NCBI RefSeq assembly: GCF_026586665.1
Contig: NZ_JAODIY010000010.1
Location: 62,001-126,000 of the forward strand
Length of the DNA: 64,000 nucleotides
Source of the DNA: Halovenus rubra
GTDB lineage: Archaea; Halobacteriota; Halobacteria; Halobacteriales; Haloarculaceae
Direction: 5' to 3'
Shown here: in pieces, positions 16,305 to 27,904 of the stretch
How the letters are laid out: every line of letters begins with the position of its first letter
Numbering within the stretch: position 1 is the first letter of the stretch
Notes under the pieces: generated by a model
What the model saw: only the letters and a program-made list of their open reading frames with translations
Databases searched by the model: none
Told to the model about the DNA's origin: nothing
Position numbers and translations under genes: made by a program

Positions 16305-17249
16305 ATGGAAATCCTCGTTCTTCGACAGAAGATACACGGCATGGATGCAAGCGGGTACGCAGAGATTCTACGCGAAACATTCCCCGAGCAGACGGTCCGA
16401 GAAGCGACGACGCCGGCTCAAGAGCAAGAGTCCCTACAGAGTGCTGATATAGTGACGGGGTTTGAACTTTCTCCTGAGGATTTAGAACATGCCGAGAACC
16501 TGGAGCTGTTTGGCTGTGTGTTCGCGGGAACAGGGCACCTCGAACTCGATGCCTTCAAGCAACGGGATATCGCGGTGACCAATGCTTCGGGCGTCCATGG
16601 CCCGAACATCTCCGAGTACGTCATCGGCGCGATGATTCACCACGCCAAACGGTTCGGCCGTGCACACCGCCAGCAGGAACGCCGCGAGTGGCGCAGCTAC
16701 AAAACGGATGACCTGCACAACTCAACGGTCACCATCGTCGGACTCGGGGCAATCGGAACAGCAGTTGCCGAGCGCCTCGATGGGTTTGGAATGGAGACGG
16801 TCGGTGTCAGATACACACCAGAGAAAGGCGGGCCGACCGATGACGTCTATGGCTTCGACAAGATTCACGAGGCTGTCAACGACGCCGAGTACGTCGTGCT
16901 GGCGTGCCCACTGACAGATGCAACTGCCGGACTTATCGACGAAGACGTATTCAAGACAATGCACCCCGACGGAGTACTCGTCAATATCGGCCGTGGGCCG
17001 GTTGTCGACACCGACGCACTGGTGTCGGCCATCCGCTGGAACCGCATCGGTGGGGCGACACTGGACGTAAGCGACCCCGAACCCCTACCTACGGACCATC
17101 CGTTATGGAGCATGGATAACGTCATGCTCACCCCACACAACTCTGGATACTCCCCAGAGTACTTCGAGCGCCGGAGTGCTATCCTCGAACGAAATATCGA
17201 GCGAATCCGCGGGGGCGAGCACGAGGAGTTGGAAAACCAAGTCGTCTGA
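16305..17249 (+). CDS. D-2-hydroxyacid dehydrogenase
   Basis: NAD(P)-dependent dehydrogenase of 314 residues. It has the Rossmann motif GLGAIG at 146-151 and the family catalytic triad: Arg229 in NIGRGPVVD, Glu258 in DPEPLP and His277 in LTPHNSG. Family members reduce 2-keto acids to D-2-hydroxyacids or the reverse. Substrate is uncertain: glyoxylate/hydroxypyruvate and D-lactate are both consistent with the neighbouring lactate/glycolate and glycerate genes. GC here is ordinary (31/60 at 17101), unlike the block that follows. The end of a permease gene lies immediately downstream. Confidence 0.92.
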   Translation: MEILVLRQKIHGMDASGYAEILRETFPEQTVREATTPAQEQESLQSADIVTGFELSPEDLEHAENLELFGCVFAGTGHLELDAFKQRDIAVTNASGVHGPNISEYVIGAMIHHAKRFGRAHRQQERREWRSYKTDDLHNSTVTIVGLGAIGTAVAERLDGFGMETVGVRYTPEKGGPTDDVYGFDKIHEAVNDAEYVVLACPLTDATAGLIDEDVFKTMHPDGVLVNIGRGPVVDTDALVSAIRWNRIGGATLDVSDPEPLPTDHPLWSMDNVMLTPHNSGYSPEYFERRSAILERNIERIRGGEHEELENQVV

Positions 17250-17258
17250 CCGGATAGA

Positions 17259-17521
17259 ACGCCCCTGTTCTCGCAGTTCCAGTTCACCGCCGCCCAATCG
17301 GCGTGCCGACACAGCTTGTCGTCGGTGCACAGGCCGTCGGCGGCGCGATGGGGACACTGGTGGCAACTGACAACATCGTCGCGGCGCTGGCGACTATCGG
17401 TCTCGTCGGGGAAGGGAGGCGAATCGTGCGGTTGAACCTTATTTTGCTGCTGTACTACGCCTCCTTCGTGGGTGTCCTGACAATGGTATTCTCTTTTGTC
17501 CTCTTCACGGGGGTGTTCTGA
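17259..17521 (+). pseudogene. C-terminal remnant of an L-lactate permease (LctP family)
   Basis: Only the last 80-90 residues of an LctP-type permease remain. One frame reads TPLFSQFQFTAAQ, then the neighbouring frame continues GVPTQLVVGAQAVGGAMG and ATDNIVAALATIGLVG, followed by a final transmembrane helix and stop. The frame change near 17298 implies a one-base indel. The rest of the gene (several hundred codons) is missing, and the remnant begins within about 10 nt of the dehydrogenase stop, so a deletion joined the two. The family call rests on the GA/VGGxxG and IVAAxATxGLVG segments typical of the LctP C terminus. A GTG-started 72-residue peptide could still be made but would lack a transporter core. 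Confidence 0.65.
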
Positions 17522-17592
17522 CGGGGGCGGTTCACCCGGCCGTTTACGTATGACGGGACCAAATTTCGACCGACCAGCGGGCGAACGTATCC

Positions 17593-18105
17593 ATGACACA
17601 GGACACCCCGACAACCACGTACGAGCAGTTCGCGTCCGTCGCCAGCGAGTACGGCATCGAGCCGCGACGTGTCGAGCCGAACGGCGTCGCCGAAGCTGTC
17701 ACCGAGATGCTCGACCCACCAGCTGTCGGAACCCAGCTCCCGTGGGAGGACGCGACACTGCCCGACGGCGTGACGACGGAGCCGACGCCTGCGGATCTCC
17801 GGGCAGCGACGACGGGCGTCACAGCCGCGTCGCTTGCTATCGCCGAGTACGGGAGCATCGTTCTCGACGCCGACGAAGACGGCAGCGACTCGGTCAGCCT
17901 GTTCAACGACTTGCACGTGGCGGTCCTCCACGAGGACGACATCGTGCCGGATATGGCGACCGCATTCGAGCAGTTCGGTGAGCGACTGCGCGAAACGCGC
18001 GAATCGGCGATTATCGCCACGGGCCCCTCGGCGACCGCCGACATGGGCGCACTGGTAAACGGGGCACACGGCCCGAAACAGGTGGAGGTGATCGTGGTCT
18101 CATGA
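17593..18105 (+). CDS. lutC: LUD domain protein (LutC/LldG-type)
   Basis: A 170-residue LUD-domain protein, the smallest subunit of the non-flavin lactate utilisation system LutABC/LldEFG. Typical features are GVTAASLAIAEYGSIVL, a DLHVAVLHEDDIV segment and the C-terminal TGPSATADMGALVNGAHGP, with the Gly-Pro-Ser-x-Thr-Ala-Asp stretch that is highly conserved in LUD proteins. It overlaps the next gene by 4 nt (stop within ATGA), showing translational coupling. GC is about 70% (42/60 at 17641), well above the genes on its left. It follows the permease remnant, consistent with a former lactate uptake-oxidation operon. Confidence 0.9.
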   Translation: MTQDTPTTTYEQFASVASEYGIEPRRVEPNGVAEAVTEMLDPPAVGTQLPWEDATLPDGVTTEPTPADLRAATTGVTAASLAIAEYGSIVLDADEDGSDSVSLFNDLHVAVLHEDDIVPDMATAFEQFGERLRETRESAIIATGPSATADMGALVNGAHGPKQVEVIVVS

Positions 18106-20312
18106 GCTCCCGCGAGTCGAAGGCCGAGCACATCCGGCGGATTATGGCGACAGAGGGAGCCGCCGTCGGCGAGAACACCCGCGGGTTCAACCAGGGCCGC
18201 TACGAGTCGGTGGCGAAACTAGAGGACTACGAGGAACTGAAAGACGAGGCCCGCGCCATCAAAGAGGATGCCATCGAACGCCTCCCCGAACTCGTCGAGG
18301 AGGTTCGGGCGGTCGTCGAGGAAAACGGCGGCACCGTCTACCTCGCCGAGGACGCCGCCGACGCGAACCGCTACATCCGGGAGGTCTGTGACGCCCAGGA
18401 TGCAACGCGGCTGGTCAAAAGCAAGTCGATGACCAGCGAGGAACTCGAAGTCAACGAGGCACTGGAATCGGGTGGCATCGAGGTGATCGAGACCGACCTC
18501 GGCGAGTGGGTCCTCCAGGTCGCCGAGGAGGCTCCGAGTCACATCGTCGCGCCGGCAATCCACAAGTCACGCGAGGAGATTGCCCGCCTGTTCAACGAGT
18601 ACTTCGACCCCGAGGAGGAGCTCGAAACCGCCCAGGAACTCACCGAGTTCGCCCGTGAACATCTGGGCGAACTCATCGAGGGTGCCGACGTGGGGATGAC
18701 CGGCGCGAACTTCGTCACCGCGGATTCGGGAACCATCGCGCTCGTGACCAGCGAGGGTAACGCCCGCAAGTGCGTGACAGTCCCGGAGACACAGATTGCC
18801 GTCGCCGGCGTCGAGAAAATCGTCCCCAGCGTCGAGGAACTCCGGCCATTCATCGAACTCATCGGCCGCTCCGGGACGGGACAGGATATCACGAGCTACA
18901 TCTCACTGTTCACTCCGCCAGTCGACTCGCCGACGGTCGACTTCGACCGGCCGGAGGAGCCGATTGCGGGGGGCGACACCGCCGGCGACCGGGAGTTTCA
19001 CCTCGTACTCATCGACAACGGTCGGATGGCGATGCGCGAGGACGACGACCTCCGGGAAACGCTGTACTGCATCAGGTGTTCGGCGTGTGCGAACACCTGC
19101 GCGAACTTCCAGTCGGTCGGGGGCCACGCCTTCGGCGGCGAGACCTACTCCGGGGGCATCGCCACCGGCTGGGAGGCCGGCGTCCACGGCCTCGATTCGG
19201 CGGGTGAGTTCAACGACCTCTGTACCGGCTGCTCGCGGTGTGTCCCGGCCTGCCCGGTACAAATCGACATCCCGTGGATAAACACGGTCGTCCGTGACCG
19301 TCTCAACAGCGGCGAGGACGTCCCACTGGAGGTGCTCGTCGAGGGACTCACGCCCGACGCCGAGACGGAGGGGCCGGGACTCCAGAAGCGGCTGTTCGGC
19401 AACGTCGAGACACTGGCGAAACTCGGCAGCGCGTTCGCCCCGCTCTCGAACTGGGCGGCGAACTCGCGGCCCGCGTCGGCGGTCCTCGAACGGGTCGCGG
19501 GCGTGGCAGGCGAGCGAAACCTGCCTGCCTTCCAGCGGACGACGCTCCGGGACTGGATGGACCAGCGCGAAGCGGTGCCGGCGCTCGACCCCGACCGGAA
19601 GGTGGTGCTGTACCCGGACCTCTACACGAACTACATGTTCGTCGACCGCGGGAAGGCGGCCGTCCGGACGCTGGAAGCCCTCGGGGTTGAGGTGCTCGTT
19701 CCCGCCGCGCCGGGGTCGGGGCGGGCACCGCTCTCCCAGGGGATGATTTCGACCGCCCGACGGCAGGCCGAGGGTGTTGCCGACGCGCTCGACCCCTACC
19801 TGGAGGAAGGCTACGATGTGGTGGTTATCGAACCGAGCGACCTGGCGATGTTCCGGGACGATTACAGCAGGCTTCTCCCCGAGCGGGAGGCTGAATTGTT
19901 CGCCGAACACAGCTACGAGCTACTGGAGTACGTCTACGGGTTGCTCTCGAACGGGGCCAACGTGGAGGTGCTCGATACGACATCTGGCGAAGAGACTGTC
20001 GCCTATCACAGCCACTGCCAGCAGCGCACGCTGGGGCTGGAACCGTACAGCGTCGAGGTGCTGACGGAGTGTGGATACACGGTGACGACCAGTGACGTGG
20101 AGTGCTGTGGGATGGCCGGTTCGTTTGGCTACAAGGAGCAGTACTACGACCTCGCGATGGACGTTGGCTCGCGGCTCGAAGCGCAACTCCGTGAGGCAGA
20201 CGCCGACCACGTCGTCGCCAGCGGCACCTCCTGTACGGACCAGATTGGCGACCTGCTCGGCCAGGAACCCCGCCACGTCGTCGAACTCGTCGCACCGCCA
20301 GAAGAGACCTGA
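18102..20312 (+). CDS. Lactate utilisation Fe-S protein, LldF/LutB fused to an LldE-like CCG module
   Basis: A 736-residue fusion. Residues 1 to about 300 form a LUD domain (NTRGFNQGRYE, VTADSGTIALVTSEGN). Two 4Fe-4S sets follow: CIRCSACANTC near 326-336 and CTGCSRCVPACPV near 375-387. The last 300 residues are a cysteine-rich CCG domain with HSHCQQRTLG and ECCGMAGSFGY, normally a separate LutA/LldE subunit. The protein thus covers two of the three Lut subunits. It would oxidise lactate (L- or D-) and pass electrons to the membrane. Its C-terminal module is clearly homologous to the end of the next gene. GC reaches 46/60 at 19441. Confidence 0.9.
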   Translation: MSSRESKAEHIRRIMATEGAAVGENTRGFNQGRYESVAKLEDYEELKDEARAIKEDAIERLPELVEEVRAVVEENGGTVYLAEDAADANRYIREVCDAQDATRLVKSKSMTSEELEVNEALESGGIEVIETDLGEWVLQVAEEAPSHIVAPAIHKSREEIARLFNEYFDPEEELETAQELTEFAREHLGELIEGADVGMTGANFVTADSGTIALVTSEGNARKCVTVPETQIAVAGVEKIVPSVEELRPFIELIGRSGTGQDITSYISLFTPPVDSPTVDFDRPEEPIAGGDTAGDREFHLVLIDNGRMAMREDDDLRETLYCIRCSACANTCANFQSVGGHAFGGETYSGGIATGWEAGVHGLDSAGEFNDLCTGCSRCVPACPVQIDIPWINTVVRDRLNSGEDVPLEVLVEGLTPDAETEGPGLQKRLFGNVETLAKLGSAFAPLSNWAANSRPASAVLERVAGVAGERNLPAFQRTTLRDWMDQREAVPALDPDRKVVLYPDLYTNYMFVDRGKAAVRTLEALGVEVLVPAAPGSGRAPLSQGMISTARRQAEGVADALDPYLEEGYDVVVIEPSDLAMFRDDYSRLLPEREAELFAEHSYELLEYVYGLLSNGANVEVLDTTSGEETVAYHSHCQQRTLGLEPYSVEVLTECGYTVTTSDVECCGMAGSFGYKEQYYDLAMDVGSRLEAQLREADADHVVASGTSCTDQIGDLLGQEPRHVVELVAPPEET

Positions 20313-20397
20313 GAAAGAAGTATGTCAGCAACGACAACGTATACGCGCCGACGAATCCAAGTGGACGCCGAACCGCACGACACAGCAAGGAGATACG

Positions 20398-23300
20398 ATG
20401 AGTGATACACAGACCGAGGACCCGATAGCGGAATCGCGCGGCGACCCGGAGGTCGAGCGGGGCGAAGAGTCGGTCGCGCCCCCGCCACACGACCCCGCGA
20501 GCGAGTCACGGAGCAACTACGACTACGAGAGCCGGGACGTCGAGAACCCCGAGTTGCTCGCCGCACTCGACGCCCGGGTCGACGGCGAAGTCCGCTTCGA
20601 CACCTACACGCGGAGCCTCTATGCCACGGACGCGAGCGCCTACCAGCAGTTGCCCATCGGCGTCGTCGCACCAACATCGACCGCGGACGTGCAGGCGGTC
20701 ATGTCATACTGTTCCACAAAGGGGGTTCCGGTGTTGCCCCGCGGCGGCGGGACGAGTCTCGCAGGGCAGGCCGTCAACGAAGCCGTCGTGCTCGATTTCA
20801 AAAAGGAGATGGACGCGGTCCTCGACGTCGACCCGGAGAACCGGACCGTCCGGGCCGAGCCAGGGGTGACGCTCGCCCGCCTGAACGACCGACTGGAAGA
20901 GCACGACCTGAAGTACGCACCAGACCCCGCATGGGGAGACAAAAGCGTCCTCGGGGGATGTATCGGCAACAACTCGACGGGCGCACACTCCCTGAAATAC
21001 CACAAGGCCGACGGCTACCTCGAATCCGTCGAGGCGGTGCTGGCCGACGGGACTGTGACTGAACTCGGCTGGGTCGACCTCGACGACCTCCACGAGCGGG
21101 CGGAGGCAGTTGGAGACGGTGAGGACGCCGATATCGAGGAGCGCATCTACGCCGAAGTGTCGCGGATTCTCCGGGAGGACAGGGAAGAAATCGAGGCGCG
21201 CTACCCAGACCTGACGCGGAACGTCTCGGGGTACAACCTCGACAAACTCGTCGAGGACGCCGGCGAGCACGGGGCAGTGAACCTCGGCAGGCTACTCGCC
21301 GGTAGCGAGGGGACACTCGCCATCGTCACGGCGGCGACCGTCTCGCTGGAGCCGATTCCCGAGTCGAAAGCCGCCGTCCTCCTGACCTACGACCACGTCC
21401 TCGACGCGGTGGCGGATGTCGCGCCAATTCTCGAACACGACCCCGCCGCTGTGGAGGTGATGGACGACGTGTTCCTCGATTTGGCGGCCGAGCGGCCCGA
21501 GTTCGAGTCCGTCGTCGGCCTCCTCCCCGACGGGACGGACTCGACGCTACTGGTGGAGTTCTACGCGGACTCGCCCGCTGATGGGAAACAGAAGGTTGCG
21601 GACCTGCTCGCCGACAGGCTTCCCGGCCACGAAACGCCGGTCACCCCCGCGGAGGGGGCGGCTGACCGAAGCGATGCGCCGCGACGTGCCGTCGACGCGC
21701 TCGAAGCCTACGACCCCGACCGGCAAGCGAAATTCTGGAAGATGCGCAAGGCCGGGCTTCCCATTTTGCTCTCACGGACCGGCGACGAGAAACACTGGGC
21801 ATTCGTCGAGGACACCGCGATTCCAGCCCAACACCTCGATGACTACGTTGCGGACTTACAGGAGCTGTTCGAGAAGCACGATTCCTTCTCATCGTACTAT
21901 GCCCACGCAGGCCCCGGCGTACTCCACATCCGCCCGCTGTTGAACCTCAAAGCTGAGGACGGTGTCGAGACGATGACGACAATCTCCGACGCTGTGACTG
22001 ACCTCGTCATCGAGTACGACGGGTCAGTCTCGGGCGAACACGGCGACGGTCGGGCACGGACGCGGTACAACAGGAAACTGTACGGAGACCGGCTCTGGGA
22101 GACATTTCGTGACCTGAAAACCGCGTTTGACCCCGATTGGCTGTTGAACCCAGGCAGTGTCTGTGGCGAATTCGACCCCGCCGAGCAGCTCCGCTTTGAC
22201 TCGGAGTACCAGTTCGATGCGACATTCGAGCCGTCGATGAACTGGGACAACGAGAACGGCTTTCAGGGGATGGTAGAGCTCTGTCATGGCTGTGGCGGCT
22301 GTACCGGCCATCAGGAAACGACCGGTGGTGTGATGTGTCCGACCTACCGGGCAGCCGATGAGGAAATGCTCTCGACGCGAGGTCGAGCGAACGCACTCCG
22401 GCAGGCAATGAGTGGCGACCTGCCTGAGGACCCGACAAACAACGAGTTTACTCAAGAGGTACTCGACCTCTGTATCGGCTGTAAGGGCTGTCGCAAGGAT
22501 TGCCCCAGCGGTGTCGACATGGCAAAGCTCAAAGCGGAGGTAAAACACGAACATCATCAAGAGGCAGGTATCCCGCTGCGAGACCGCTTTTTTGCAAACG
22601 TAGAGACACTGTACTCGCTTGGCAGCGCGTTTGCACCGCTGTCGAACTGGGTAACGAGCATGCCCGGGAGCGGGGTCCTCGCCGAGAAGATACTGGGCAT
22701 CGCCCGCGAGCGTGACCTGCCGACATTCAAGCGCGAAACGCTTCAAAAGTGGGCAGATGGGCGCACTCCGGTGGTGCCAGCACAGAGCACTGAGAAACAT
22801 GTCCTTCTCGTCGCCGACCCATACACGAACTACACCCAGCCCGAAGTCGGAAAGGCCGCCGTCCGTGCTCTCGAAGCCACAGGAGTACATGTCCAAGTGC
22901 CCGACGACGTGGGCGACAGCGGTCGCCCCGCCCATTCGAAAAGCATGCTGGACAAGGCGCGGGCAACTGCACGTAAAAACGTCAACACACTCACACCGCG
23001 AGTCAATGAAGGGTGGGATATCGTGACCGTCGAACCCTCCGATGCCGTAATGTACCAACTTGACTACTGTGACCTCCTCAGCGGCGAAGACGTGGAGACG
23101 GTGGCGGCAAACACCTACGGTGTCATGGAGTACATCGACACCTACAAGCTCTACGAGCAGTTGCCCGGCGCTGATGGGGAGATGCTAACTTATCACGGCC
23201 ACTGCCAGCAAAAGGCGACCACAAAAGACCATCACGCAGTGAACGCACTGGAACAGGTCGGCTTCGAGGTGGACGAACTCGACTCGACGTGCTGTGGGAT

Positions 23301-23505
23301 GGCCGGCTCCTTTGGCTACGAGGCCGAACACTACTCGATGAGTACGGCCATCGCTAGCCTGCTCTTTGACCAGGTGGCGGACTCGCCCGGTGACCGAGTG
23401 GTTGCGCCTGGAACCTCCTGCCGGACGCAGTTACTCGACTGCGACGACGTGGAGGGCAAGCCGCCACACCCCATCGAGGCGTTCGAATCAGCTATCGAGC
23501 AGTGA
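20398..23505 (+). CDS. FAD-linked oxidase / Fe-S fusion (GlcD-GlcF or D-lactate dehydrogenase type)
   Basis: A 1035-residue fusion. After an acidic leader, residues about 60-560 form the FAD-binding PCMH and FAD-oxidase C domains (LPRGGGTSLAGQAVN, GNNSTGAHSLKYHKADGY, SVSGEHGDGRARTRYNR). Then come two ferredoxin sets, CHGCGGCTGHQ and CIGCKGCRKDCPSG, and CCG-type modules HGHCQQKATT and STCCGMAGSFGYE. It would oxidise glycolate or D-lactate. The ATG at 20398 follows an AGGAG-type site; longer in-frame readings run into the previous gene. Base composition changes inside the gene: 45/60 GC at 21481 and 43/60 at 21661, but 29/60 at 21841 and 30/60 at 22441. Confidence 0.9.
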   Translation: MSDTQTEDPIAESRGDPEVERGEESVAPPPHDPASESRSNYDYESRDVENPELLAALDARVDGEVRFDTYTRSLYATDASAYQQLPIGVVAPTSTADVQAVMSYCSTKGVPVLPRGGGTSLAGQAVNEAVVLDFKKEMDAVLDVDPENRTVRAEPGVTLARLNDRLEEHDLKYAPDPAWGDKSVLGGCIGNNSTGAHSLKYHKADGYLESVEAVLADGTVTELGWVDLDDLHERAEAVGDGEDADIEERIYAEVSRILREDREEIEARYPDLTRNVSGYNLDKLVEDAGEHGAVNLGRLLAGSEGTLAIVTAATVSLEPIPESKAAVLLTYDHVLDAVADVAPILEHDPAAVEVMDDVFLDLAAERPEFESVVGLLPDGTDSTLLVEFYADSPADGKQKVADLLADRLPGHETPVTPAEGAADRSDAPRRAVDALEAYDPDRQAKFWKMRKAGLPILLSRTGDEKHWAFVEDTAIPAQHLDDYVADLQELFEKHDSFSSYYAHAGPGVLHIRPLLNLKAEDGVETMTTISDAVTDLVIEYDGSVSGEHGDGRARTRYNRKLYGDRLWETFRDLKTAFDPDWLLNPGSVCGEFDPAEQLRFDSEYQFDATFEPSMNWDNENGFQGMVELCHGCGGCTGHQETTGGVMCPTYRAADEEMLSTRGRANALRQAMSGDLPEDPTNNEFTQEVLDLCIGCKGCRKDCPSGVDMAKLKAEVKHEHHQEAGIPLRDRFFANVETLYSLGSAFAPLSNWVTSMPGSGVLAEKILGIARERDLPTFKRETLQKWADGRTPVVPAQSTEKHVLLVADPYTNYTQPEVGKAAVRALEATGVHVQVPDDVGDSGRPAHSKSMLDKARATARKNVNTLTPRVNEGWDIVTVEPSDAVMYQLDYCDLLSGEDVETVAANTYGVMEYIDTYKLYEQLPGADGEMLTYHGHCQQKATTKDHHAVNALEQVGFEVDELDSTCCGMAGSFGYEAEHYSMSTAIASLLFDQVADSPGDRVVAPGTSCRTQLLDCDDVEGKPPHPIEAFESAIEQ

Positions 23506-23561
23506 TACCGCGCCTGAAATAGTGCAGAAGACTTTATCGACCAGTGGGAGACGGCGACTAT

Positions 23562-23714
23562 ATGCCAACGGGAGAGACAGGTGAGACAGAGGAGCCGACA
23601 TCCCGGCGAGCGATACTCGCGAGTATCTGCGGGACGACGGCGGGCTACGCCGAGGCAGATACCGACCACTGGCCGCGAGTGCTGGAAACCTTCGAGACGC
23701 TCCGAAACGAGTAG
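23562..23714 (+). CDS. 50-aa hypothetical protein
   Basis: An intact short frame encoding 50 residues (begins MPTGETGETEEPTSRRA, ends LETFETLRNE). The composition is acidic and haloarchaeal-like, with one Cys and a central stretch AILASICGTTAGYAEADTDHW. A tttat box lies about 28 nt upstream of its ATG, which suits a leaderless message. No family recognised. It sits between the GlcD-GlcF fusion and glycerate kinase in the GC-rich block. Confidence 0.45.
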   Translation: MPTGETGETEEPTSRRAILASICGTTAGYAEADTDHWPRVLETFETLRNE

Positions 23715-23763
23715 CACAGCCCAACATCTTTTTTCGGACTCTTGGAACGTACACTGACAAGTC

Positions 23764-25122
23764 GTGATTCGAAACGAGCCAGACCTCGCCCGGACGCCAA
23801 CACACGAGCACGCTCTCCGCGCGATAGCGGCGGGTATCGACGCCGCCCATCCTGAGACGGTCATAGCAGAAACCGTCTCACTCGACGGTGACACGCTCTC
23901 CATCGCTGACGACGGGTACGACCTCAACAAATACGACCGCCTCGTCGTGCTCGGTGGCGGGAAACCTGCCGGTGCTGTTGCCCGGGCGCTGGAGGCGGTG
24001 CTAGGGAACCGAATCGACGACGGAGCCGTGGTCACCAAGACGCCGGAACCGACAGACGAGATAGCGGTCTACAAGGGAAACCATCCGTTACCCACGAAGG
24101 AAAACGTACACGGAGCGACGGCTGTACTCGACCTCGCGGCGACAGCAGGCCCTGACGACCTCGTGCTGGTCGTCGCCAGCGGTGGCGCGAGCGCACTGCT
24201 GTCCGCACCGGTCGATGGCGTCTCTGTCGAGGCCTACCGCGACCTAACTGAGGAACTGCTCGAAAGTGGCGCGACGATAGACGAACTCAACGCGGTCAGG
24301 AAACACCTCTCCCGACTCAAAGGCGGCCGACTCGCCTGCGAACTCGCGCCAGCGACGACGGTCGGCGTGGTGTTCAGCGACGTGGTCGGGAACCCGCTGG
24401 ACGTGATTGCGAGCGGACCGACCGCGCCGGATAGCTCGACGTATGACGATGCGCTTACCGTACTGAAACGGTACGATATCGACGCTCCACCGGAAGTGAC
24501 GGACGTGCTCGACGCCGGCATAGCAGGGGACCGACCGGAAACACCCGGTCCAAACACCGCGGTGTTCGAACATGTGAGCAACCACGTCCTCGCAGACAAC
24601 CGGACAGCACTCGACGGCACGGCGCGGGTCTGTGAGCAAGCCGGGTACGAGACAGTCGTCCTCTCGACGCGAATCGAAGGGGAGGCTCAGGAGACAGGCC
24701 AGCGACACGCCGCCGTCGCCTTAGAGTGTCTCAACAGCGGCGACCCCGCCGAGCCGCCGGTCGCCCTGCTGTCGGGCGGTGAGACGACGGTTACAGTGAC
24801 AGGAAACGGTCGAGGCGGACCAAATCAGGAGTTTGCGCTGGCCGCCGCACTCGAACTAAGAGGCGAGGAAGTCTGCTCCGTGGACAGCAATATCGTCCTC
24901 GCGAGCGTCGACACCGACGGACTCGATGGCTCGACCGACGCTGCCGGTGCGCTCGTGGACTACGGGACGGTCACGACCAACAGCGCGGACGACGCACGGA
25001 ACGCGCGTGATGATAACGACGCCTACGGCTATCTCCACGCTCGCGGGAGCCTCATCGAGACAGGGCCGACCGGAACGAACGTAAACGACCTGCGTCTTGT
25101 GCTCGTCGGAACGCCACGGTGA
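23764..25122 (+). CDS. Glycerate 2-kinase (MOFRL family)
   Basis: A 452-residue kinase that phosphorylates D-glycerate to 2-phosphoglycerate, feeding glyoxylate/glycerate carbon into glycolysis. Landmarks are VVLGGGKPAGAVARALE near 60-76, KGNHPLPTKENVHGA near 103-117, VVASGGASALLSAP near 139-152, a KHLSRLKGGRLA segment, and the C-terminal MOFRL part (LLSGGETTVTVTGNGRGGPNQEFAL; DTDGLDGSTDAAG). The start is GTG, 27-33 nt after a cttttttc TATA-like box, so leaderless. GC is about 65-67%. Location after the glycolate/lactate oxidation genes fits a hydroxyacid-use locus. Confidence 0.92.
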   Translation: MIRNEPDLARTPTHEHALRAIAAGIDAAHPETVIAETVSLDGDTLSIADDGYDLNKYDRLVVLGGGKPAGAVARALEAVLGNRIDDGAVVTKTPEPTDEIAVYKGNHPLPTKENVHGATAVLDLAATAGPDDLVLVVASGGASALLSAPVDGVSVEAYRDLTEELLESGATIDELNAVRKHLSRLKGGRLACELAPATTVGVVFSDVVGNPLDVIASGPTAPDSSTYDDALTVLKRYDIDAPPEVTDVLDAGIAGDRPETPGPNTAVFEHVSNHVLADNRTALDGTARVCEQAGYETVVLSTRIEGEAQETGQRHAAVALECLNSGDPAEPPVALLSGGETTVTVTGNGRGGPNQEFALAAALELRGEEVCSVDSNIVLASVDTDGLDGSTDAAGALVDYGTVTTNSADDARNARDDNDAYGYLHARGSLIETGPTGTNVNDLRLVLVGTPR

Positions 25123-25160
25123 CGAACCTTTTTGTGACGAGGGGTCCCGTTTGAGAAACG

Positions 25161-26243
25161 ATGGACTCCGCGGCACTCACAAAAGAACTGGTCGAGATAC
25201 CGAGCCACGAGGACGAGACCGAGGCCGGGGACCGCATCGAGCAGTGGCTCCGAACCGAAACGGATGCCACGGTCGAACGCGACACACATGGGAACGTCAT
25301 CGCCCGACGAGGAGACGGTGACACCTCACTCGCGTTCGTCGGTCACCACGACGTCGTCCCGCCGGACCCCTCACAGGAACGTGACGGTGGCTACGTTGTC
25401 GAAGAGCATGACGGACGCATCTACGGGCGCGGGGCTGCCGACATGAAGGGGGCAGTCGCAGCTGCGATGTGTGCATTCCGGGATGCCGAAGTTTCGGGAT
25501 ACGAACTCGTCTTCGCCTCGTTCGTCGGTGAAGAGGTCGGCGGGACAGGAGCACGCGGTGCACTCGAAGACGGATTCGCACCTGACTACGCTGTCGTCGG
25601 AGAAGGGTCGACAAACTACTCGAAGCAAGGAGTAACCGACGTGGTAGTTGCCCACCGAGGCCGTCGCGGGAGCACCGTACACGTCGAGGGAAAAGCAGCC
25701 CACGCAAGCGAACCCGAAGCCGGGGAGAATGCAATTTACCGGGCGTCGGATGCAATCGATGTTGTCCGAGACCTGCCGTTCCCCGAGACGACCGTACTGG
25801 GTCACGAAATGCGTGGCTCTATCGCAGTTACTGAAATTGACGGCGGAACTGCATGGAACGTCATTCCCGAGGGTTGCTCGGTGACTATCGACGAGCGAAC
25901 CGTTCCGAACGAACGGACACCACTCAGTCACGTTGAGGAGGTGCCCGGTGTCAGGGTCGAGGTTGACCAAGACCTGCCACCGATGGCGTGTGACGATGCG
26001 GAGTTTGCCGATCTCGTTCTCGACGCGGCAACCGCCATGCAGGACAAAACGCCAGAACACGTTCTCAAACCGCATGCAACTGATGCCGGATGGCTGGCCG
26101 AAGCAGGGACAACCTGCGTTGTCTGTGGCGCATCCGAGCCCGAAGAAGCCCACACCGCAGACGAGAGTGTCTCGGTCGACGTGCTTGACCGCTGTTATGA
26201 CATCTATCGGCAGTGTGGAGAACAGTTCGAGACGCTGCTGTAG
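25161..26243 (+). CDS. M20 family metallopeptidase (ArgE/DapE-like deacylase)
   Basis: A 360-residue zinc amidohydrolase. It has the first metal motif GHHDVVP (His62, Asp64), the second GRGAADMKG (Asp94), catalytic and metal Glu in FVGEEVGG (124-125), and the usual dimerisation lid followed by the C-terminal metal His region (ESVSVDVLDRCY near the end). Substrate is not resolvable between acyl-amino acids and dipeptides; it is not in the arginine cluster and need not be ArgE. A cctttttgt box 27-33 nt upstream supports a leaderless start. GC falls from 41/60 near 25321 to 34/60 near 26041, marking the end of the GC-rich block. Confidence 0.85.
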   Translation: MDSAALTKELVEIPSHEDETEAGDRIEQWLRTETDATVERDTHGNVIARRGDGDTSLAFVGHHDVVPPDPSQERDGGYVVEEHDGRIYGRGAADMKGAVAAAMCAFRDAEVSGYELVFASFVGEEVGGTGARGALEDGFAPDYAVVGEGSTNYSKQGVTDVVVAHRGRRGSTVHVEGKAAHASEPEAGENAIYRASDAIDVVRDLPFPETTVLGHEMRGSIAVTEIDGGTAWNVIPEGCSVTIDERTVPNERTPLSHVEEVPGVRVEVDQDLPPMACDDAEFADLVLDAATAMQDKTPEHVLKPHATDAGWLAEAGTTCVVCGASEPEEAHTADESVSVDVLDRCYDIYRQCGEQFETLL

Positions 26244-26404
26244 GCTGTCTCGACTCGTGGCAAGCAGAGAGATAGCAACGAGTCGATAGTCTATTTCCTT
26301 CGAAAGAAACAGTCAACATCTCAAACAGTTACTCACAATAATCTACACGAATGTTCGTAAAGGAGAGCGATGAGTTGATGGGGCTGGTTGTACTACAGGG
26401 AGGT

Positions 26405-27904
26405 ATGTCATCGGAGGCACAGCAGTCCGAAGAAGTCTACGAAGCATTTCTTGAGCATGTACGCAAGTATAACTACGTCGGCGATGCGTCCGGCGTGCTG
26501 AGTTGGGACCAGCAGGTAATGATGCCAGAGGGCGGGACACCAGCCCGTTCGAAGCAGAGTTCAACGCTATCGACAGTACACCACGAGTTGCTGACAGACG
26601 ACAAGCTGTCTGAGTGGCTGGACGAACTCGACGGCACGGTCGACGACGAACAGCAAGCCGTCGTCCGAGAAGTCAGACGGTCCCACGAGCGCGCAAATGC
26701 CATTCCGGAGGACCTCGTCAAGCGTCTTTCTGAGGCTAGTTCTAACGCACTCCCGGTCTGGGAGGAGGCGAAAGCAAAATCGGATTTCTCGCTGTTCGAG
26801 GAGACACTCGAAGAACTGGTCGAACTCCGACGAGAGTACGCTGCGGCAATCGACCCCGACCGAGACCCGTACGAGGTCTTGTTCGAAGATTACGAGCCGT
26901 ATATCGATATCGACACCGCTGAAGCAATTCTAACAGAACTCCGCGAAGAGCTTCCGGCTCTTATCGATGCTATCGCCGAGAGCGATGTCGAGCCTGCCGA
27001 CCCATTCGAAGGCGAGTACGACGCGGAAACACAGGAATCACTCGTCACAGAGGCACTCGATACGCTTGGCTATGACTGGGACCGCGGCCGCCTCGATACA
27101 GCACCGCACCCATTCTCGACGGGGACACAGTTCGATGCCCGCGTTACGACACGGTTTGCCCCTGATGACCCGATGGGTGCCATCGGGTCGACCATCCACG
27201 AGTTCGGGCACGCAAGTTATACACTTGGTCTGTCCGACGACGATTACGGGACACCGCTGGGTGACAGCCGTGATATGACCGTTCACGAGTCTCAGTCCAG
27301 ACTCTGGGAGAACCACGTCGGACGGTCCAAGCCCTTCTGGCGACTATTCGCCTCGGAAGTCGAAGAACAGTTCGGTATCACTGCCTCACCGCAGGCGTTC
27401 TACGAGCACGCAAACGAAGTCTACGACGATAATATGATTCGCGTCGAAGCCGACGAGTTGACCTATCATATGCACATCGTCGTTCGGTTCGAAATCGAGC
27501 GTGACCTGATTCGTGGCGATCTCGACGTGAGCGAGGTCCCACAGGTCTGGAATGACAAGGTCGAAGAGTATCTCGGCGTGCGACCGGACAATGATGCAGA
27601 GGGCTGTCTACAAGATATCCACTGGACGCATGGCAACTTTGGCTATTTCCCGACGTACTCTCTTGGGTCGGTTCTCGCCTCCCAGCTGTTTGGGGCTGCC
27701 GAGCGCGAGCTAGGCGACCTCGACGATGATATCGAATCCGGAAACTTCGACCGTCTTTACGGCTGGCTCAACGAAAACGTCCACGAGCATGGCTGTCGGT
27801 ACACCACAACGGACCTGATCGAGGAAGCCACTGGCGAAGCGTTCACCGCTGAGTACTTCCTTGACTACGCAAACAAGAAGTACGGCAATCTCTACAACCT
27901 CTAA
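26405..27904 (+). CDS. M32 family carboxypeptidase (carboxypeptidase Taq type)
   Basis: A 499-residue cytoplasmic zinc carboxypeptidase with broad specificity. It shows the HEFGH zinc motif (near 265-269, within STIHEFGHASYTLGL), the downstream MTVHESQSRLWENHVGRS segment with the third ligand Glu, and the C-terminal DIHWTHGNFGYFPTYSLGS signature. The length matches the family (about 500). The ATG at 26405 is preceded by GGGAGG and is preferred over an upstream in-frame ATG. It has its own promoter region after the M20 gene. Confidence 0.93.
   Translation: MSSEAQQSEEVYEAFLEHVRKYNYVGDASGVLSWDQQVMMPEGGTPARSKQSSTLSTVHHELLTDDKLSEWLDELDGTVDDEQQAVVREVRRSHERANAIPEDLVKRLSEASSNALPVWEEAKAKSDFSLFEETLEELVELRREYAAAIDPDRDPYEVLFEDYEPYIDIDTAEAILTELREELPALIDAIAESDVEPADPFEGEYDAETQESLVTEALDTLGYDWDRGRLDTAPHPFSTGTQFDARVTTRFAPDDPMGAIGSTIHEFGHASYTLGLSDDDYGTPLGDSRDMTVHESQSRLWENHVGRSKPFWRLFASEVEEQFGITASPQAFYEHANEVYDDNMIRVEADELTYHMHIVVRFEIERDLIRGDLDVSEVPQVWNDKVEEYLGVRPDNDAEGCLQDIHWTHGNFGYFPTYSLGSVLASQLFGAAERELGDLDDDIESGNFDRLYGWLNENVHEHGCRYTTTDLIEEATGEAFTAEYFLDYANKKYGNLYNL

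Follow-up and report, generated by a model that had tools for sequence, protein, structure and literature searches.

Why should a run of lactate and glycerate genes in Halovenus rubra be richer in GC than the genome around it, and was it imported? The window, by which we mean the whole 64,000-nucleotide stretch of DNA that was analysed, spans positions 62001-126000 of contig C2. Within it, positions 17500-25450 contain 63.7% GC, compared with 57.1% in the remaining window; the figure for 0.71 Mb of this genome is 55.6%, with an sd of 3.7 points between 2-kb windows. The rise described in an earlier note on this DNA is therefore real, and it is also rare: when 1.58 Mb of the 3.57-Mb genome (98.7% complete) was sampled, only 13 of 788 2-kb windows reached at least 64% GC, so that such swings are unusual in H. 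rubra. The earlier note had found the pattern consistent with an island imported from a high-GC haloarchaeon and then recombined with a resident copy, and it had named two observations that would speak against this: swings of this kind being common across the genome, which was not found, and gene trees being congruent across the boundaries, which was.

The genes run in the order D-2-hydroxyacid dehydrogenase, lctP remnant, lutC, lutBA, glcDF, gckA, M20 peptidase and M32 peptidase (Table 1), and none of those identified encodes an integrase or transposase. The nearest relatives by shared genes are two Halovenus genomes, G003 and G001 (contig Halovenus salina CP112972). lutC and lutBA are adjacent with a 4-base overlap, and their products both carry LUD_dom, together with Fer4_8 in the LutB-like protein, which is the combination that characterises a LudBC/LutBC pair. 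Because the scores fall below the NCBIfam cut-offs (lutBA against LdhH, 7e-137 and 457.5 bits, cut-off 800; TIGR00273, 341 bits, equivalog cut-off 444.8) and haloarchaeal members are known to be distant (PMC8305020), we name these proteins LudBC-like rather than LutB equivalogs. GlcDF combines FAD_binding_4, FAD-oxidase_C, a dicluster Fe-S domain and CCG in a single chain, as proteins of the GlcD-GlcF type do. Judging from known families, the LutBC/LudBC-like enzymes probably still oxidise L-lactate to the ketoacid, GlcDF probably oxidises a D-2-hydroxyacid to the ketoacid, and the gckA product probably phosphorylates glycerate. The metabolic content of the cluster is ordinary.

Table 1. Features of the locus, in window coordinates
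Feature	Coordinates	Strand	Evidence
D-2-hydroxyacid dehydrogenase, left flank	16305..17249	+	Pfam 2-Hacid_dh_C 4e-54; host-like GC3 0.66; syntenic 80% orthologues in G001/G003
lctP decayed 3' remnant (L-lactate permease)	17268..17521	+	DNA alignment with G001/G003/G007
GC3-rich tract (0.83), putative replacement tract	17200..21660	+	Maximum-likelihood segmentation; change spectrum
lutC/ludC-like LUD-domain protein, 170 aa	17593..18105	+	Pfam LUD_dom 6e-16; tree
lutBA: lutB-like LUD protein, 4Fe-4S and one C-terminal cysteine-rich (CCG) domain, 736 aa	18102..20312	+	Pfam LUD_dom 7e-41, Fer4_8, CCG; tree
glcDF: fused FAD-linked oxidase / 4Fe-4S-CCG 2-hydroxyacid dehydrogenase (GlcD-GlcF type), 1037 aa	20392..23505	+	Pfam FAD_binding_4, FAD-oxidase_C, Fer4_8, CCG
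gckA: glycerate 2-kinase type protein (DUF4147/MOFRL), 452 aa	23764..25122	+	Pfam DUF4147 3e-75, MOFRL 6e-32
M20-family deacylase/peptidase, right flank	25161..26243	+	Pfam Peptidase_M20 3e-29; host-like GC3 0.63

Once composition is controlled, only the left part of the block is anomalous, from ~17.2 to ~21.66 kb, covering lutC, lutBA and the 5' 40% of glcDF. Maximum-likelihood segmentation of GC3 gave 0.635 up to ~17.2 kb, 0.832 at 17.2-21.66 kb, 0.71 up to 25.37 kb and 0.62 beyond; a three-segment model gains 83 in log-likelihood over no segmentation, and the fourth segment (21.66-25.37 kb) is a weakly supported, mild shoulder with a BIC gain of just 3.5. The left edge of the rich tract is sharp (bounded by 17150-17619), and the right edge lies inside glcDF (bounded by 21564-22287), with GC3 at 0.835 in the 5' part of that gene and 0.71 in its 3' part. 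Since GC3 in the 3' part of glcDF and in gckA is still slightly above background, the tract may fade out gradually or in patches on its right side. Of the sharp internal boundaries proposed in the earlier note, the left edge thus holds up, but the arrangement of two rich tracts flanking a poor one does not, as GC3 gives one strong tract and a weak shoulder. The supposedly GC-poor middle (21.8-23.5 kb) has ~60% GC, which is above the genome mean, and the second GC-rich tract (23.5-25.45 kb) needs no import because it mostly reflects codon positions 1 and 2 of gckA (GC1/2/3 = 0.73/0.49/0.72), whose orthologues are likewise GC-rich (69-71%). A second imported tract at gckA was rejected on these grounds, its synonymous-change spectrum being just marginal (P=0.03).

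Comparison with the two nearest relatives places the cluster at the same locus in all three genomes. Gene order is shared with G003 and G001 from an upstream PIN/KH ATPase through gckA; the M20-M32 pair (25161-27904) is found elsewhere in both, its members again adjacent to each other, which puts a synteny breakpoint directly after gckA. Between glcDF and gckA, a 50-codon open frame (23563-23715) occupies a position where G001 and G003 have a few bases, and it has no relative among the loci compared. The same topology, with the window sister to G001+G003, came from LutBA, LutC, the upstream ATPase and either end of GlcDF (its first 470 and its last 437 residues), and it has strong support for LutC, LutBA and GlcDF. 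Gene order and phylogeny mark the lctP-lutC-lutBA-glcDF-gckA cluster as native to this Halovenus sub-clade, and the shared locus and order do not fit a horizontally acquired island. The phylogeny of the tract shows no transfer, and no donor was found in 18 genomes of the genus, where the best nucleotide match (80-81%) is no closer than those of the flanking genes; both results are also what one would expect if the donor belonged to an unsampled sister lineage. The GC-conserving divergence of the tract from G001 and G003 is not lowered, which rules out a recent import from either of them; a haloarchaeal plasmid source was rejected with best matches of 71-73%, and relative-distance ratios per gene (1.2-3.5) were too scattered to place a donor.

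The spectrum of synonymous changes separates the tract from its surroundings where the trees do not. We considered 4-fold sites at which G001 and G003 agree on G or C, a set that is imperfectly polarised without an outgroup, and compared the tract (lutC, lutBA and the first 423 codons of glcDF) with a background of 33 window genes. Strong-to-weak changes were found at 50 of 371 tract sites (13%) against 985 of 3039 background sites (32%; Fisher P=3.7e-9), a low share that is partly expected because the tract was defined by GC3; the independent part of the result is the normal rate of strong-to-strong changes (68/371, 18%, against 421/3039, 14%). As strong-to-strong changes are no rarer than in the background, the tract is not slow-evolving; its changes have kept pace with those of the genome, but under GC-rich mutational conditions. 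The remaining 3' part of glcDF (27% strong-to-weak, 14% strong-to-strong) behaves like the background (P=0.50) and unlike the tract (P=0.0035). Polarising with three outgroups gave the same pattern in the few genes covered. This spectrum suggests that the tract most likely joined the H. rubra genome late. A bounded segment, a distinct synonymous-change spectrum, normal divergence and a conserved locus are what mark a homologous replacement tract, and each of them is present here.

The explanation that we consider probable is the homologous replacement of ~4.5 kb by DNA of an unsampled, close, high-GC Halovenus; we infer both the act of replacement and the donor from these patterns. H. rubra DNA has shifted towards AT after its lineage parted from those of H. 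salina (G001) and G003, and in this background homologous recombination would have exchanged everything from the lctP 3' end or the start of lutC through the 5' 40-60% of glcDF for the corresponding donor DNA. One junction would fall within glcDF (about codon 390-630), making this gene a recombinant, and the other at the scar left by the lctP deletion or next to it. The dedicated lactate permease is gone, and the enzymes are kept. Recombination with a resident copy, as put forward in the earlier note, is thereby retained, since replacement with a junction in glcDF best fits the change spectrum. The import of an island from a separate high-GC haloarchaeon is not, given the same site in the two nearest Halovenus and the same tree for every tract.

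An alternative that we regard as unlikely is that the tract kept an ancestral GC-rich state as AT content rose elsewhere in the genome, through local protection from the mutational shift or repeated gene conversion among polyploid genome copies. Polyploid haloarchaea could conceivably undergo GC-biased conversion, and the congruence of the trees in every tract and the failure to find a donor also agree with such retention. It does not account for the sharp step inside glcDF, however, and none of the 33 background genes shows so strong an escape from the AT shift over a similar length. Moreover, the lut genes of two other low-GC Halovenus (G010 and G012) have shifted normally: their lutBA has GC3 of 0.65/0.69, like their flanks, which means that lut genes are not intrinsically GC-rich, and an intrinsic explanation was rejected by this control.

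Selection on codon use, with highly expressed genes preferring C/G-ending codons, is very improbable. The host EF-2 (GC3 0.675), thermosome (0.686) and rpoA1 all lie within 0.67-0.69, so that strong expression does not yield a GC3 of 0.83, and the tract stops mid-gene, even if C-ending NNY codons reach 0.90 in lutBA. The sister placement of LutC, LutBA and GlcDF, together with the common locus and order, makes it extremely improbable that the whole island came from a distant high-GC haloarchaeon and then recombined with a resident copy; what favours such a transfer is that the tract is GC-rich and that the cluster moves among haloarchaea, as seen from the lutBA of Halobellus and Halorubellus, which nest among those of Halovenus. 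In fact lutC, lutBA and glcDF of Halobellus salinus and Halorubellus salinus all nest within the Halovenus trees, and this suggests transfer of the cluster between haloarchaeal families. That Ala/Gly/Val-rich proteins make the whole block GC-rich has next to no chance of being right: it is true for gckA but refuted for the left tract, where lutC, lutBA and the 5' part of glcDF are anomalous at third and 4-fold sites.

The left edge of the tract holds a further feature, absent from the earlier note, in the form of a decayed lactate permease gene. Both G001 and G003 have an intact permease of ~630 residues between the dehydrogenase and lutC. In H. rubra the last 76 codons alone align (79% identity over residues 550-625), with ~1.8 kb of 5' sequence gone, a 4-bp deletion ahead and conserved residues replaced; 16 of the 36 codons changed relative to G003 are nonsynonymous, compared with 5 of 25 between G001 and G003. 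No further lctP match was found in the H. rubra genome, and the LudBC/LutBC module here is without its associated permease. The tract edge coincides within error with the lctP scar, and the loss of the permease may be causally linked to the exchange. Possible, though doubtful, is that the incoming DNA already carried the truncated lctP; a single event would then have converted an operon for uptake and oxidation into one that handles only lactate and glycerate made inside the cell.

High GC3 tends to mark incoming DNA in the H. rubra genome. Values of at least 0.78 were found in 14 of 1140 sampled genes (1.58 Mb). Two of these belong to the window; the others are largely accessory and comprise several heavy-metal P-type ATPases, a mercury(II) reductase (merA), a three-gene patatin island and four small or uncertain calls. 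The patatin island (C1:152449-159801) is more strongly GC-rich (GC3 0.86-0.88) and looks acquired; it encodes two patatin-domain proteins, one with a weak Ntox5-like C-terminal match, and, as its largest gene, an 1180-aa protein without a Pfam match or relatives in 24 searched genomes. The GC-rich heavy-metal P-type ATPases and mercury(II) reductase lie on small contigs (L033:9983-12584, L246:3078-5360, L247:9091-11463 and L249:9659-16998), and these metal-resistance genes were probably acquired.

A literature search on Halovenus lactate biology returned nothing relevant. Among the closest described counterparts is the ludBC-lctP cluster of Haloferax volcanii (HVO_1692, HVO_1693, HVO_1696 and HVO_1697), which brings together the LUD-domain proteins LudB (~733 aa) and LudC, a lactate permease and a further oxidoreductase; cells deleted for ludBC grow less well on rhamnose, a source of lactate, and this links LudBC to lactate oxidation (PMC8305020). 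The window shows the same clustering of LUD-domain LudB and LudC, its 736-aa LutB-like protein resembling HVO_1692 LudB, but its lctP is a decayed remnant and a glycerate kinase lies downstream. The L-lactate oxidation systems LutABC of Bacillus subtilis and LldABC of Pseudomonas stutzeri share the LUD-domain LutB/LutC and a cysteine-rich Fe-S protein; here, in contrast, the LutB-like protein itself carries a fused cysteine-rich domain, and the sequences are distant, below the NCBIfam cut-offs. As for the exchange, haloarchaea are known to swap genes or gene parts between species at conserved loci (PMC4500145), and the replacement process itself is already well known in them. The locus would add a clean natural case of intragenic homologous replacement in an archaeon, legible without the donor because the base composition of the recipient has drifted, and the contrast between strong-to-strong and strong-to-weak synonymous changes can tell replacement from retention where gene trees are silent. 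Set beside the known haloarchaeal mosaics (PMC4500145), the window would represent the same kind of swap at a conserved locus, differing from them in that no donor was found in the 18 genomes of the genus and in that the shift of the recipient to low GC makes it visible by its composition.
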